From contig CALUYU010000023.1 of the NCBI GenBank assembly GCA_944325075.1, forward strand, positions 1-35,072: a DNA stretch of 35,072 nucleotides. Direction: 5' to 3'. Both the position numbers and the translations under genes were made by a program. Positions 11,301 to 35,072 of this stretch are shown one piece after another (position 1 is the first letter of the stretch; each line of letters opens with the position of its first letter). Origin of the DNA: Candidatus Gastranaerophilales bacterium. GTDB taxonomy: Bacteria > Cyanobacteriota > Vampirovibrionia > Gastranaerophilales > Gastranaerophilaceae. The notes below the pieces were generated by a model. It did no database searches. It was not told the DNA's origin and saw only the letters and a program-made list of their open reading frames with translations.

Positions 11301-11354
11301 ATGCAAAACCCAATCATAGCGCGATTTTCCCCGAGGGGGGGGGGGGCAGACTAA
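11301..11354 (+). pseudogene. Short frame with a 12-G tract; candidate phase-off gene start
   Basis: A Shine-Dalgarno-like AAGAGG precedes an ATG at 11301, giving MQNPIIARFSPRGGGGAD and then a stop. The G codons are a pure run of 12 G at 11335-11346. The N-terminal pattern M-x4-IAR-x3-RGG matches the minus-strand start at 12740 (MGKLSIARHTGRG), which is also followed by a G-rich tract. One G fewer would open a frame to about 11566 that includes a hydrophobic segment (FLSFWLFISFIFFLLP). One G more would open it to about 11411. It may be a phase-variable gene in the off state, a decayed remnant, or an assembly error in the homopolymer. Confidence 0.4.
11335..11346 (+). repeat. Homopolymer tract of 12 G
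   Basis: A pure run of G in an otherwise AT-rich region, positioned 34 bases after a potential start codon. Tracts of this length are prone to slipped-strand mispairing. Confidence 0.9.
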
Positions 11355-11548
11355 CTGCTTTTTCCACGACTGGCAAGGCTTTTCGGCCGATACCATCTTC
11401 TATTTTTTTTTAAGTTTTTGGTTATTTATATCTTTTATATTTTTTCTATTACCAATATCTAATTGCGATAATTTCAGAAACTCATTTTGTTTCAGGCGAA
11501 ATTATATGCTTTCGCAGATTTGTTGTGCTTGTTTTAAAGGAGGTTTTT

Positions 11549-11653
11549 ATGAATATTGGGGGTAGAAATAAAAATATAAACCCTTTTTTATATGTTTTGT
11601 GTTTATGGAATATAATGACATATATTGAAAAAAAGGCGTTAAAAATAGTATAA
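11549..11653 (+). CDS. Possible 34-residue peptide upstream of pseudopilin A
   Basis: A very strong Shine-Dalgarno (AAAGGAGG, 11536-11543) stands at ideal distance from an ATG at 11549. The frame encodes a 34-residue peptide with a hydrophobic middle (NPFLYVLCLWNIM) and a basic end (EKKALKIV), stopping 19 bases before the pseudopilin A start. It could be a small membrane peptide, a translational leader, or the relic of a decayed gene. Confidence 0.4.
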   Translation: MNIGGRNKNINPFLYVLCLWNIMTYIEKKALKIV

Positions 11654-11672
11654 TATAAATAATGGAGGATTT

Positions 11673-12488
11673 ATGAATAAGTTATTAAATATGCTTAATT
11701 TAACTAACATCAATCATTTTAATGTTACCAATATTCCCATTGCTTCACACGCAACGACGTATCACGTAAGAGAGGACTTAGCTCCGAAAGCCGCTTTTAC
11801 TCTTGCTGAAGTTCTTATAACCTTGGGGATTATTGGTGTGATCGCTGCAATGACATTGCCGACATTGATTGCAAAATATCAGAAGAAAGTAACTGTTGTT
11901 AAGCTGCAAAAAGCCTACACAACTTTAGCTCAGGCCGTTGAAAAGTCTAAAAGCAAATACGGTGATATTTCAGGATGGGATTATACTTACGGTAATGATG
12001 TAAATAGCGATACACAAAAAGAGATGTTTACCAAATTTGTACATACATATATTACTCCAAACTTGTTAATCAGTGAAGATTGCGGGTACAAAAATGAAAA
12101 AAACTGCAAAAATCCTAAGGTTTGCTCATCATCAAATAGTTCTTTCTGTGTAGATATTGCAGACGGCTACTACTTTATTACACCTGAAGCAAGATACTCT
12201 ATAAGCCAGGATAATAATGCCGGAACTTCTATAAACAGATTTGGGGTTAAGATAGATATAAATGGGAATGAAGGGCCGAATTTATTTGGAAGAGATGTAT
12301 TTTACGGCTTTATTGAACCAACAAGAAACAGATTTGAATTTATTGGAGCAGAATTGCTGTTCTCACGCGAACACATGATAACGGATACAAGCGCCTGGGG
12401 ATGCAACAAGGCATCAAATTACAAAATGTATTGCGGAGCAATAATTCAAATAGACGGCTGGCAAATTAAAGACGACTACCCGTGGTAG
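11673..12488 (+). CDS. Prepilin-type pseudopilin-like protein (locus A)
   Basis: This 271-residue protein carries a type IV pilin/type II secretion prepilin signal: FTLAEVLITLGIIG begins at residue 42, with Glu at mature position 5 and a long hydrophobic helix. The leader is unusually long (41 residues against the usual 6-25), and its end (ASHATTYHVREDLAPKA) resembles the leaders of loci B and C. The mature body has several Cys (CGYKNEKNCKNPKVC, WGCNKASNYKMYCG), probably disulfide-bonded outside the cell, and ends with DGWQIKDDYPW. Pseudopilins are processed by PilD-like peptidase and assembled at the inner membrane. GGAGG precedes the ATG. No pilus assembly genes lie nearby. An orphan leader frame lies tail-to-tail downstream. 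Confidence 0.88.
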   Translation: MNKLLNMLNLTNINHFNVTNIPIASHATTYHVREDLAPKAAFTLAEVLITLGIIGVIAAMTLPTLIAKYQKKVTVVKLQKAYTTLAQAVEKSKSKYGDISGWDYTYGNDVNSDTQKEMFTKFVHTYITPNLLISEDCGYKNEKNCKNPKVCSSSNSSFCVDIADGYYFITPEARYSISQDNNAGTSINRFGVKIDINGNEGPNLFGRDVFYGFIEPTRNRFEFIGAELLFSREHMITDTSAWGCNKASNYKMYCGAIIQIDGWQIKDDYPW

Positions 12489-12740
12489 CGGGGTGCCACA
12501 GGCACCAGCCTACCACGAGTAGTCGCTAAGTGAGATGCAACAGCTTTTTGTAGGTTGGGGTTTCTACCCCAACAATATTTTAATGTTGGGCTGAAAGCCC
12601 AACCTACTTTATCTAATACTTCTTTTCCTGCTACAGAAAACTTTAATTTTGAGAAAGATAATTTTAAGCAAAACCCTTGTCTCCCTTGAGGTTTCTTACA
12701 CCCCCCTCCCCGTATGCCTTGCTATACTTAACTTTCCCAT
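12476..12740 (-). pseudogene. Orphan pseudopilin leader, frame-disrupted at a G-rich tract
   Basis: An ATG at 12740 has AAAGGAGG seven bases upstream and a promoter further up. It reads MGKLSIARHTGRGV and stops at TAA just after a G4-A-G6 tract. One base fewer in the tract continues in frame to 12476: PQGRQGF, FSKLKFSV, KEVLDKVGWAFSPTL, WGRNPNLQKA, SHLATTRGRLVP. These segments match the in-frame leaders of pseudopilins B (KEVLDKVGWAFSPTL, RNPNLQKA) and C (PQGREGF, KSKFSV). Here no FTLAEV domain follows; the frame ends antisense to the 3' end of pseudopilin A. It therefore looks like a leader cassette lacking its pilin. The palindrome pair at 12549-12607 lies inside it. Confidence 0.55.
12549..12607. 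repeat. Double palindrome GTAGGTTGGGG...CCCCAAC / GTTGGGC...GCCCAAC
   Basis: Two hairpins back to back (TGTAGGTTGGGGTTTCTACC with its partner, then GTTGGGCTGAAAGCCCAAC and CTAC). The same 59-base unit occurs at 20473-20531 with two or three differences, and single hairpins of the family occur at 51-76, 361-386, 34793-34817 and 34937-34962. Confidence 0.85.
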
Positions 12741-12935
12741 ATATCTACCTCCTTTTTCTTTTATTATACATTATTTTTCTTATTTTTCAAGTCTTGTTTT
12801 TGTATTTTAAATTCCACGACTAATAGTGCTTTCTTTTTGTGTATGAGGGAGGCACTGAAAGACCCACATTGACTTTCATTAATATTTTCATGAGAAGCAA
12901 ACAGTTAATAAAATTTGCAAAAAATAGAAAATAAA
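12741..12935. other. AT-rich intergenic region with repeat fragments
   Basis: Besides the orphan-leader promoter, this stretch holds a partial copy (12813-12836, ACTAATAGTGCTTTCTTTTT) of the ACTCATAGTGCTTTCT repeat also found at 104-149 and 20786-20826. I see no gene after it. Confidence 0.55.
12763..12790 (-). promoter_or_regulatory. Promoter of the orphan leader
   Basis: On the minus strand TTGAAA (12790-12785), 16 bases, then TATAAT (12768-12763), followed by AAAGGAGG at 12755-12748 and the ATG at 12740. All parts of a gene start are in place. Confidence 0.6.
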
Positions 12936-19167: not shown

Positions 19168-19743
19168 ATGAATTCCATAAATATCAGAAAAATAGTAAAT
19201 TTAATGGGGAAACACAGTATTTTAGAGGTTAAACCGAGAAAAGAACTGCCCAAATATTTAATATACTTTAACAGATGGACCAGTAATTATACTCTGGTCA
19301 ACTCAGAAACCGGCAAGTCATTAGGTAAAATGTGTGCAAGACCGGAGGCAATATATGATAATACTTATTATCCGGCGAACCACCCATATTCCTCTTTCTA
19401 TATATCCTCCCTCTGGGTCGATCCCAAACACAGAAGAGAAGGGGTTGGCAAGGCCCTGATAAATCTTGCCAAAGTAGAAAGTTTTCGCCGCGGAGGAGAC
19501 GGAAGGGTTCATCTGATTGCGCAGAAACTTAACGATCAGGAATCAAAACCGCCTCAAATATTTTACAGAAAGCAGGGGTTTACATCTCAGTATAAATGGC
19601 AAATTGCAACAATTGACCGATGCATAATGAACAATGAAGAACTACCCAAAAACATGCGATGGATAACCCCAATGTTTCTTCCTATCAAAAAGATATGCGA
19701 GTATTGCAATATTTTTCGAAATAAAAAATATAATATTAATTAG
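19168..19743 (+). CDS. GNAT-family N-acetyltransferase
   Basis: This 191-residue protein has the GNAT fold signature. ISSLWVDPKHRREGVGKALINLAK (about 75-98) contains the acetyl-CoA pyrophosphate-binding R/Q-x-x-G-x-G/A loop as RREGVGKA, and FYRKQGF (about 131-137) is the typical motif B end. The substrate is unknown. GGAG lies before the ATG, 22 bases after the paralog pair, so it probably belongs to that operon. Its stop overlaps by four bases the stop of the convergent pseudopilin B. Confidence 0.85.
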   Translation: MNSINIRKIVNLMGKHSILEVKPRKELPKYLIYFNRWTSNYTLVNSETGKSLGKMCARPEAIYDNTYYPANHPYSSFYISSLWVDPKHRREGVGKALINLAKVESFRRGGDGRVHLIAQKLNDQESKPPQIFYRKQGFTSQYKWQIATIDRCIMNNEELPKNMRWITPMFLPIKKICEYCNIFRNKKYNIN

Positions 19744-20768
19744 AGATTATAAGGATAGTCATCCTTAAATTCCCAGTTATCTAAAATAATAAGACCTGAA
19801 CAATAATAAGGATTACTTTTGCACTGTTCCAGGTGATAACTTCGAGGTCTCGTATATTCGTTTATATTATAATAAGGTGAAAAACACCTATTTTTTACAT
19901 ATGCATTTCCTGCGTTACAAAATAAAAAGACAAATTGATCTATACCCATTGTATTTGGCTGATTAGAACCATTCACGTCAAAAAGAATATCTATACAACT
20001 ACCAGCCTTTGCGGCCATGAAAGATCCATCTGCAAATTTAATTCCGGGAACAGAAGATAATACTGTAGAAGATGTTTTCCAAGAAAAATCATCTGTTATT
20101 TCACCCTTTACATAAGGTGCAATATATTTTACAATAAAAGTTTTTGCACTATTAGTACTTTCTGCGATAGAGTCGTTTAATTCTTCTTCTGATCCGTCAA
20201 CTATAATTTGAACTTTATCATAATCCCAATAACCGCAAGCTCCATAATCAAGTTCTGCCATCTTTATCGCCTGATTCATTATTGAGTAGAATTTTTTTAA
20301 CCTTGCTGTAGTTGTTGATTCCGTAGTATTGGTCAAAAGTGCAGGCAAAGTCATTGCAGCCACTACTCCGATTATGCCAAGGGTTATTAGAACTTCTGCT
20401 AACGTAAATGCGGGAACTAAGGCCCCTCTTACATGACGCGTCGCTTTCCGAGATGTATAAGAAATAGCTTTTTGTAGGTTGGGGTTTCTACCCCAACAAC
20501 ATTTTAATGTTGGGCTGAAAGCCCAACCTACTTTATCTAATACCTCTTTCCCTGATACAGTGCAGATTGTCGCACATTTTTGACGGTGGCTAGATCCTGA
20601 AATACTCTGCGAGCACCCTCCCTTGTAAGCCTCCTTTTCGTCGGCAACAAGAGGAGCTGCGAGTTCAGGATGACATGGTAAATTTTTATTTACCTTTTCC
20701 ATATGCATCCCACACAGCGACGCGTTATAGGGAAGTCCCTCAGGGACAAACCCCAACCTACATCTCAA
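19740..20768 (-). CDS. Prepilin-type pseudopilin-like protein with repeat-encoded leader (locus B)
   Basis: The prepilin signal FTLAEVLITLGIIG starts at 20408, followed by a conserved hydrophobic helix and a variable body with Cys residues (CGYWDYD, CIDILFDVNG, CFSPYYN, YCSG). The end is DNWEFKDDYPYNL, matching loci A and C. The frame is open for 120 residues before the signal. The only in-frame starts are a TTG at 20768 (a TGA lies just upstream) and ATGs at 20708 and 20702. This leader reads through the long repeat (20585-20675) as CHPELAAPLVADEKEAYKGG and through the double palindrome (20473-20531) as WAFSPTL...WGRNPNL. Parallel leader peptides occur in locus C and in the orphan at 12476-12740. 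The true start is uncertain. Confidence 0.8.
   Translation of the reverse strand: MRCRLGFVPEGLPYNASLCGMHMEKVNKNLPCHPELAAPLVADEKEAYKGGCSQSISGSSHRQKCATICTVSGKEVLDKVGWAFSPTLKCCWGRNPNLQKAISYTSRKATRHVRGALVPAFTLAEVLITLGIIGVVAAMTLPALLTNTTESTTTARLKKFYSIMNQAIKMAELDYGACGYWDYDKVQIIVDGSEEELNDSIAESTNSAKTFIVKYIAPYVKGEITDDFSWKTSSTVLSSVPGIKFADGSFMAAKAGSCIDILFDVNGSNQPNTMGIDQFVFLFCNAGNAYVKNRCFSPYYNINEYTRPRSYHLEQCKSNPYYCSGLIILDNWEFKDDYPYNL
20473..20531. repeat. Double palindrome, second full copy
   Basis: Nearly identical to 12549-12607. The flanks are also alike (AGCTTTTTGTAGG before, CTTTATCTAATAC after). It lies inside the open frame upstream of the pseudopilin B signal. Confidence 0.85.
20585..20675. repeat. 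Long GATCCTGAAA...TCAGGATGACA repeat
   Basis: The ends form the inverted pair AGATCCTGAA/TTCAGGAT. About 60 bases in the loop carry further partial pairing (GAGGAGC, GCTCG). It matches 244-330 with only a few differences. A short version without the loop insert lies at 34856-34890 beside pseudopilin C. Confidence 0.85.
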
Positions 20769-34003: not shown

Positions 34004-34047
34004 ACAAAAAGGCCTCTGTTTATTTTATAAACGGAGGCCTTTTGTTT
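34004..34047. terminator. Terminator between HU and pseudopilin C
   Basis: AAAAGGCCTCTGTTTA and TAAACGGAGGCCTTTT form a long stem with one G-U pair around TTTTA. Confidence 0.88.
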
Positions 34048-34063
34048 AAGAGAATATTTTTAT

Positions 34064-35032
34064 TTACCACGGATAATCGTCTTTAATCTTCCAGCCGTCA
34101 CGGATAAGCTTAGAAAAACAATATTCTCCAATCGTTGAACATTCTTCCTCTATCTCATCATTTGACTTTTCATATCCGTCAGCTAAAACTCCCTTTTTAG
34201 TCACCTGCATATAAAACGTATCCTTACCATTTTGGTTAGGTCGATTTGCCCCGTTTATATCAACCATAATACGAAAATCATCAATTATTGGTTCTAAAGT
34301 TCCATCTTCTAAAGTCCCTCCGCCTCGACGCACAGACATAGCAAGCACAAATCCGTCTGTTGTAATAAAAGTCCTTCTATATCCAGATGAGACAACGTTA
34401 AATGTACTCATAATTCCATTTGGCATTTGGAAAGGAGTAGGACTTCTATATCCGCATTCCTGGTAAGTATTACATGTTTTTGCCACCTTAAAATACGGTT
34501 TCCAGTATTTCTCAAAATAAGTATCAGGATCACTATGGTCTACATCCCAATACTCAAATTCTCCGTTATCTACTTCTGAAAGCTTAAATGCTTGATTTAA
34601 TACAGTATATACTTTTTGTATTTTTGAAATTGTTTCCTTCTTTTGGTAATTAGCAATTAAAGTCGGCAAAGTCATAGCAGCAACAACTCCGATTATGCCT
34701 AGGGTTATTAGAACCTCCGCCAACGTAAACGCGGGGACTAAGTCCCCTCTTACATGACGCGTCGCTTTCCAAGATGCATAAGAAATAGCTTTTGTAGGTT
34801 GGGCTTTCAGCCCAACATTAGATTTTTGAGCACAGATGGTCGAAAATTTTTGTCGGTGGTAAGATCCTGAAACGAGTTCAGGATGACATAGAGAATTTTT
34901 TATCAACCTTTTCTCTATACGGCCAACACAGCGCAATGTAGGTTGGGGGTTCACCCCAACATAATCTTTATTTACGTCTGATACAGAAAACTTTGATTTG
35001 GTGAAAAATTTGAAGAAAGGTATTTTTGACAA
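34064..35032 (-). CDS. Prepilin-type pseudopilin-like protein, 5' end possibly beyond window (locus C)
   Basis: The prepilin signal FTLAEVLITLGIIG starts at 34729 and is followed by a variable body with the Cys motifs KTCNTYQECGY and CSTIGEYC, ending DGWKIKDDYPW as in locus A. Upstream the frame stays open without a stop to the window edge. Its first listed start is a TTG at 35032, but in-frame coding-like sequence continues beyond it (PQGREGF, matching PQGRQGF of the orphan at 12476-12740) up to a 12-C tract at 35061-35072. The leader reads through palindromes as CHPELVSGS (34856-34890) and VGLKAQPTK (34793-34817). KATRHVRGDLVPAF is shared with locus B. The true start probably lies beyond the window. 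Confidence 0.82.
   Translation of the reverse strand: MSKIPFFKFFTKSKFSVSDVNKDYVGVNPQPTLRCVGRIEKRLIKNSLCHPELVSGSYHRQKFSTICAQKSNVGLKAQPTKAISYASWKATRHVRGDLVPAFTLAEVLITLGIIGVVAAMTLPTLIANYQKKETISKIQKVYTVLNQAFKLSEVDNGEFEYWDVDHSDPDTYFEKYWKPYFKVAKTCNTYQECGYRSPTPFQMPNGIMSTFNVVSSGYRRTFITTDGFVLAMSVRRGGGTLEDGTLEPIIDDFRIMVDINGANRPNQNGKDTFYMQVTKKGVLADGYEKSNDEIEEECSTIGEYCFSKLIRDGWKIKDDYPW
34793..34962. repeat. Cluster of three short palindromic repeats in the pseudopilin C leader
   Basis: GTAGGTTGGGC/GCCCAAC hairpin (34793-34817), short GATCCTGAA/TTCAGGATGAC hairpin (34856-34890) and GTAGGTTGGGGG/CACCCCAAC hairpin (34937-34962). All three belong to families found at 1-428, 12549-12607 and 20473-20675. Confidence 0.82.
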
Positions 35033-35060
35033 AAACCCTTCTCTCCCTTGAGGTTCGTTA

Positions 35061-35072
35061 CCCCCCCCCCCC
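35061..35072 (-). repeat. 12-C tract at window end (G tract on the coding strand of locus C)
   Basis: A pure run of C ends the window. On the minus strand it is a G tract immediately before GTAACGAACCTCAAGGGAG, the same relative position as the G-rich tract before the orphan leader (12700-12711). Its real length is unknown because the window stops here. Confidence 0.85.

Follow-up and report, generated by a model that had tools for sequence, protein, structure and literature searches.

A putative poly-G phase-variation switch in the leader of type IV pilin-like genes of a Candidatus Gastranaerophilales bacterium

Introduction

The best-known cases of phase variation at homopolymers come from pathogens, among them Neisseria, Campylobacter and Haemophilus. 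In Neisseria, silent pilS copies act as donors for the recombination that varies pilE, and the pilE G4 (G-quadruplex) serves this recombination. The Rickettsia palindromic elements are small palindromic repeats that are inserted in reading frames and read through as protein. The phase-variable genes of Neisseria include homopolymeric contingency loci in surface genes (PMC5084427). Poly-G tracts of the Campylobacter phasome are mostly 9-10 in length and mostly located within ORFs, with 5-81 switchable genes per strain (PMC6321876). The sortase-dependent pilus of Bifidobacterium breve is controlled by slippage at an intragenic G tract, and mixtures of tract lengths were measured by maximum depth sequencing (PMC9187656).

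The locus described here (locus C) lies at the end of the window, that is, the whole 35,072-nt stretch analysed, which is contig C23 of a Candidatus Gastranaerophilales genome (G000; 2.26 Mb, 107 contigs). As in B. breve, a G tract is tied to pilus genes in a gut commensal (PMC9187656), whereas B. breve has sortase pili, with two clusters in UCC2003, and here type IV pilin-like genes number dozens per genome, and their tract lies in a leader 5' of the site of prepilin cleavage. The large number of poly-G-switchable candidate genes in one genome resembles Campylobacter, in which varied gene families are concerned, whereas most tracts here serve pilins behind repeated start cassettes. Pilin diversity within one genome recalls Neisseria, but in place of the pilE/pilS arrangement there are many separately promoted pilin genes with a tract in each. 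In-frame reading of palindromic modules is common to Rickettsia and this genome, and here the modules belong to a stretch that prepilin processing is expected to remove. A literature search restricted to open-access articles retrieved no description of poly-G phase variation in Gastranaerophilales or Melainabacteria. Poly-G phase variation itself is already known; the putative pilin-leader switch in Gastranaerophilales appears to be new to the open-access literature searched.

Results

Structure of locus C

Read directly on the minus strand, the contig starts with G12 (35072-35061), followed by T at 35060 and an AAC codon from 35059 (reading from the contig end, NEPQGREGFLSK...). The codons 3' of the tract, AAC GAA CCT CAA GGG AGA GAA GGG TTT TTG, encode NEPQGREGFL. 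The original prediction had described a 12-base homopolymer at the window edge; the run is present, but 12 is a lower bound, the contig terminating within it. Runs of nine G's are expected 0.04 times by chance in the 35,072-nt window, and two tracts were observed, at 11335-11346 (plus strand) and 35061-35072 (minus strand). The latter, a putative slippage switch of at least 12 G's, is matched by about 70 genome copies of the tract followed by TAACGAACCT.

The locus C frame covers 34064-35071 (minus strand) and terminates at the stop codon at 34064-34066. From the tract to the pilin F at 34729 (FTLAEVLITLGIIG), 109 codons and an Ala codon are all open, which bears out the earlier claim that the frame has no stop from the pilin back to the terminal poly-G. 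When the leader was scanned in frame, neither a stop nor an ATG was found, and TTG is the sole in-frame start listed for this ORF. The leader (NEPQGREGF...VPA, 34730-35059, minus strand) contains short palindromic repeat modules in the pilin frame, namely I4 (34939-34963, minus strand; GTTGGGGT...CCCAAC, read as YVGVNPQPT), I6 (34864-34884, minus strand; TCCTGAAC...TTCAGGA, read as HPELVSGS) and I5 (34798-34816, minus strand; GTTGGGCT...AGCCCAAC, read as NVGLKAQPT). The pilin and HU-like genes converge on an inverted repeat read directly at 34008-34043 (AAAGGCCTC...GAGGCCTTTT), probably their shared terminator.

The mature type IV pilin-like protein (34064-34729, minus strand; 221 aa) ends with DGWKIKDDYPW. 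Its processing site, A^FTLAEVLITLGIIGVVAAM, has F+1, E5 and a hydrophobic stretch, and F1 to V6, including E5, are invariant in 16 sequences. The PF07963 score was 21.3 bits, above the cut-off, in the genome search and 17.6 against a cut-off of 21.2 in the whole-protein scan; TIGR02532 scored 14.9 against a cut-off of 16.3, and the GspG-like match had an E value of 3.6e-5. The predicted structure of the mature protein (pLDDT 78) consists of an N-terminal helix at 3-55 (53 residues) followed by antiparallel strands. With this model, Foldseek gave no significant fold match, and VIA-align returned PAK pilin (Z 4.0 over 116 residues) and FimA (Z 3.7) amid weak unrelated matches. The source genome contains 150 scored N_methyl matches and one prepilin peptidase domain (PF01478, G000:C20:11276-11671, 38.2 bits, above the cut-off). 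At G000:C3:14204-26261, a series of N_methyl matches shares one strand and has no G tracts; it is perhaps a constant pilus operon.

The start cassette in the source genome

Cassettes were counted by pattern and family searches of the genome. The pattern G(10-15)-TAACGAACCTCAAGGG gave about 70 copies, and 70 loci were retrieved (family A). The 5' side was analysed in the 57 copies that retain sequence upstream of the tract; their architecture is TTGAAAA-(about 16)-TATAATAAAAGAAAAAGGAGGTAAACACATGGAAAAGTCAAGTATAGCACGGCATAC and then the tract, with a sigma70-like promoter in 52 of 53 copies tested. A Shine-Dalgarno (SD) sequence and an ATG precede the tract, and the distance from ATG to tract is 29 nt in 56 of the 57. 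The original prediction had proposed to look for SD-ATG-x4-IAR-x3-RGG 5' of the tract; the start was found in the 57 paralogues, but RGG was absent.

Tract lengths in these copies were 13 (n=34), 12 (n=11), 14 (n=7), 11 (n=2), 15 (n=2) and 10 (n=1). Because of the 29-nt spacing, 12 G's (0 mod 3) represent the ON state, in which the ATG is joined in frame to NEPQGREGF and the pilin; with 13 G's, TAA lies directly 3' of the tract, and 11 or 14 G's lead into the third frame. As assembled, 12 copies are ON, 39 are +1 and 6 are +2. A homopolymer within the 5' part of an ORF, framed in one of three lengths, was thereby recognized on the paralogues, the window copy being without its 5' side.

Tracts of at least 10 G's number 129 in the source genome. 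Of the 111 pilin hits on contigs C1-C53, 69 had a same-strand tract within 850 nt upstream (control, 6). A search of viral contigs with the exact cassette patterns gave no match. Certain tract lengths close to contig ends may be sequencing artefacts, candidates being the end of C38 (G18-A17) and the oddly G-rich tracts of L040 and L062. One further locus (L196, G000:C11:5820-5880) differs from the pilin tracts in having facing G and C runs of 12-13 that form an inverted repeat round a short stretch.

Frame and sequence of the leaders

The frame was examined in the 48 copies that have a pilin motif no more than 700 nt from the tract. The motif was in the NEPQG frame in 44 of the 48 (binomial p 4e-17, ignoring relatedness), and this frame was uninterrupted between tract and pilin in 42, compared with none of the 48 in each of the other two frames. 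Stops numbered 34 in the leader frame and 354 and 314 in the others. Nineteen of the 44 in-frame leaders, including that of locus C, are without any ATG, and in-frame ATGs 3' of the tract, where there are any, mostly lack an SD sequence. The earlier claim of a translated leader with a contingency tract is well supported by the 57 SD-ATG copies, the fixed spacing, the promoter and the openness of the leader frame.

The leaders carry palindromic repeat modules in frame (e.g. VGVKPQPT and HPELVSGS) and range from 45 to 182 codons, so they are not one invariant sequence. Identity is 96% across the first 24 bases of the leader and has a median of 32% among the pilin bodies behind the cassette. In the first 45 leader bases, no excess of third-position substitutions was found (0.155, 0.084 and 0.086 by codon position); since this excess is absent, the substitutions give no amino-acid-level proof of translation, and the test leaves a functional leader peptide unsupported. 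Pairwise gap lengths in the leader DNA alignment showed no enrichment of multiples of three (0.35); the mosaics make this alignment too noisy, and the comparison of tract frame and pilin frame was relied on in its place. Across the leaders, openness and frame are conserved and the amino acids are not. These patterns would fit a leader segment in which selection keeps only openness and frame, as would be expected if prepilin peptidase removes the leader.

Position of contig ends

Contig ends lie within 350 bp of 40 of 69 cassette copies (expected 2.3), but within 15 bp of the tract in only 8, most breaks being 20-320 bp away on either side. The suggestion that assembly stopped because tract length is mixed is not supported in that form, as the breaks are spread over the repeat. 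Because the repeat is common to dozens of loci, a contig end at the tract is not evidence of mixed length; to judge from the sequence, the multi-copy repeat explains the breaks, and mixed tract length may add to them. Contig C102 has a complete 5' half and then ends inside the tract, which is the matching kind of end for C23. No pairing of the two contigs is claimed, several other 3' halves likewise starting in a tract.

Other cassette-related features in the window

An orphan cassette copy (12640-12752, minus strand) has no pilin behind it. Its leader (about 12659-12740, minus strand) consists of an SD sequence, ATGGGAAAGTTAAGTATAGCAAGGCATAC with the ATG at 12740, the interrupted tract GGGGAGGGGGGTG (about 12711-12699, minus strand) and then TAAGAAACCTCAAGGGAGACAAGGG (PQGRQGF). 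The original prediction placed this PQGRQGF at the same distance from a G tract as in locus C; the spacing does match, but the orphan tract is broken.

A family C relative of the cassette (11302-11565, plus strand) has the ATG at 11302 (MQNPIIARFSPR), G12 at 11335-11346 and a small ORF, and is assembled in the +1 state (MQNPIIARFSPRGGGGAD stop). A pilin of 271 aa with its own ATG (11673-12488, plus strand) lies 3' of this leader. Another pilin (19740-20768, minus strand) shares leader modules with locus C and has no ATG-tract cassette before it, which suggests a decapitated copy or silent donor. This gene and L061 have a mosaic leader or post-tract block without an ATG cassette in front; copies of this type could be silent donors or decayed copies, or genes with a different start.

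Further leader families and other genera

The family B leader of the source genome, MLKFNHSANFPD-Gn-KLHLKPLSHGHYGKF, continues into pilins as an open frame. The family C leader, MQNPIIARFSLI-Gn-QTKGLNPY..., usually belongs to an ORF of 60-70 aa, which in several copies ends with ...IIKGGIL (...KGGIL) and a stop codon that overlaps the ATG with which the following ORF starts (GGAGGTATTTTATGA), for example in the window (11302-11673) and in L194, L198, L203 and L223. This overlap suggests that the switch takes a translationally coupled form in family C. A DNA core before the tract (CAATCATAG) is common to families B and C (L190-L226) and is read in different frames (NHS vs II), a difference compatible with tract length compensating for upstream indels.

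Tracts of at least 10 G's were found in 217 of 288 genomes across the family, with a maximum of 176 in one genome. A sample of 88 distinct tracts was drawn from 18 genomes representing 14 genera. In 41 of them a pilin follows within 700 nt on the strand that bears the G's (controls, 0, 0 and 8), and 36 of these 41 have an SD sequence and a start 12-48 nt upstream of the tract. The phases of 30 such genes in other genera were 6 ON, 14 and 10. The leaders differ between genera, and the recurring feature is the placement of the tract behind the start. Over half of the sampled other-genus tracts (L158-L187, L237-L296) have no pilin within 700 nt and belong to other genes or small ORFs. The tracts of genome G033 lie mostly on one strand per contig (all plus in C2 and C4, all minus in C5-C7), as if co-oriented with replication.

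Tract-length differences between copies and species

Tract lengths were compared among paralogues and among orthologues between lineages, with one genome per species. The near-identical copies L022 and L023, with 1 flank mismatch, have tracts of 12 and 13. Seven loci of the sister genome CALUYR01 (G009, Candidatus Gastranaerophilales bacterium) share upstream flanks with the source genome, and tract length differs in four of these seven syntenic pairs (12/14, 12/13, 13/12 and 14/11). Tract-length variation was accordingly found in both near-identical copies and orthologues. In the pair L136 and L009, the upstream flank is 98.9% identical between the two species while the leader and pilin are different, and the remaining syntenic flanks of this species pair are 81-92% identical. 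This pattern suggests recent transfer or exchange at the cassette.

Discussion

The 5' end of the type IV pilin gene at locus C is quite probably an ON/OFF switch of the poly-G contingency (phase-variation) type, as judged from sequence comparison of its paralogues. The promoter, SD sequence and ATG would initiate a short N-terminal leader with the G tract about ten codons in; past the tract, about 110 leader codons and then the pilin would follow. With the frame set by (29 + n), complete prepilin would be produced at n = 12 (or 9 or 15), translation would stop at the TAA after the tract at n = 13, and at n = 11 or 14 it would come to a stop in a different frame. Within a population, slippage of the DNA at the tract would flip the state. 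Prepilin peptidase would cut the translated leader before F+1, and because the leader would be removed there, its sequence could be nearly free while the frame stays open. About 60-70 such genes per genome, mostly OFF, would let cells show shifting subsets of a large pilin repertoire, and the displayed pili may function in gut attachment or evasion.

The distribution of OFF phases counts against such a switch, because equal OFF phases would not predict the skew to +1 over +2 seen in the source genome (39:6 in family A, 11:2 in B and 14:1 in C). It would be expected if +1 were a fixed state and programmed slippage of RNA polymerase or the ribosome yielded a little full-length prepilin with no genomic switching: +1 prevails in all three families (39/57, 11/13 and 14/15) despite their differing tract and upstream lengths, and TAA stands immediately 3' of the tract. 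We nevertheless consider programmed slippage improbable, as the 57 family A copies include 12 in the zero frame and 6 in +2, lengths vary among close paralogues and orthologues, and other genera show all phases (6/14/10). The G run, which is G-quadruplex-capable, and the near-identical 5' end could instead move pilin bodies and leaders by recombination, tract length being secondary. The contrast between the 24 conserved leader bases (96%) and the pilin bodies (median 32%), the mosaics of shared modules, the decapitated copies (19740-20768) and the syntenic locus with a 98.9% identical upstream flank and divergent leader and pilin all speak for exchange, yet the tract is fixed 29 nt after the ATG in 56 of 57 copies and sets the reading frame, and unrelated leaders in other genera keep its position after the start, which recombination alone would not need. 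As the primary role of the tract, recombination is thus unlikely.

If the tract and PQGR block were a non-coding dispersed repeat standing before pilins by chance, with the pilins starting at internal TTG or GTG codons, substitutions free of third-position bias and palindromic repeats in the leader would be natural. Frame conservation in 44 of 48 copies, openness in 42 against none in either alternative, the fixed spacing of SD and ATG, and the scarcity of SD sequences at in-frame post-tract ATGs make this highly improbable. It is still harder to credit that the contig-end poly-G is the dark-cycle G of two-colour sequencing chemistry: some contig-end tracts do look artefactual (C38, G18-A17), but both flanks are joined through the tract in 57 copies, and the independent MAG CALUYR01 shares tract, flanks and lengths. 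For the cassette family as a whole, these spanned tracts and CALUYR01 refute such an artefact.

Returning to the contingency switch, a wider reading, which we offer tentatively and regard as possible rather than probable, is that Gastranaerophilales maintain a genome-scale switchable pilin repertoire, in which a promoter-ATG-G-tract cassette, homogenised or spread among loci, stands in front of dozens of divergent pilins, slippage selects among them and recombination between the modular leaders exchanges the bodies that follow the switch. In this non-photosynthetic cyanobacterial lineage of animal guts, some species appear to have genomes with more than 100 poly-G tracts, many of which precede type IV pilins. 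If this is true, the switch repertoire would account for fragmented assemblies and would offer a natural case of a long protein segment selected for frame openness alone. Existing metagenomes could supply per-read tract lengths. Such a repertoire would also point to strong immune, phage or niche pressure on the pili of a poorly known gut commensal.
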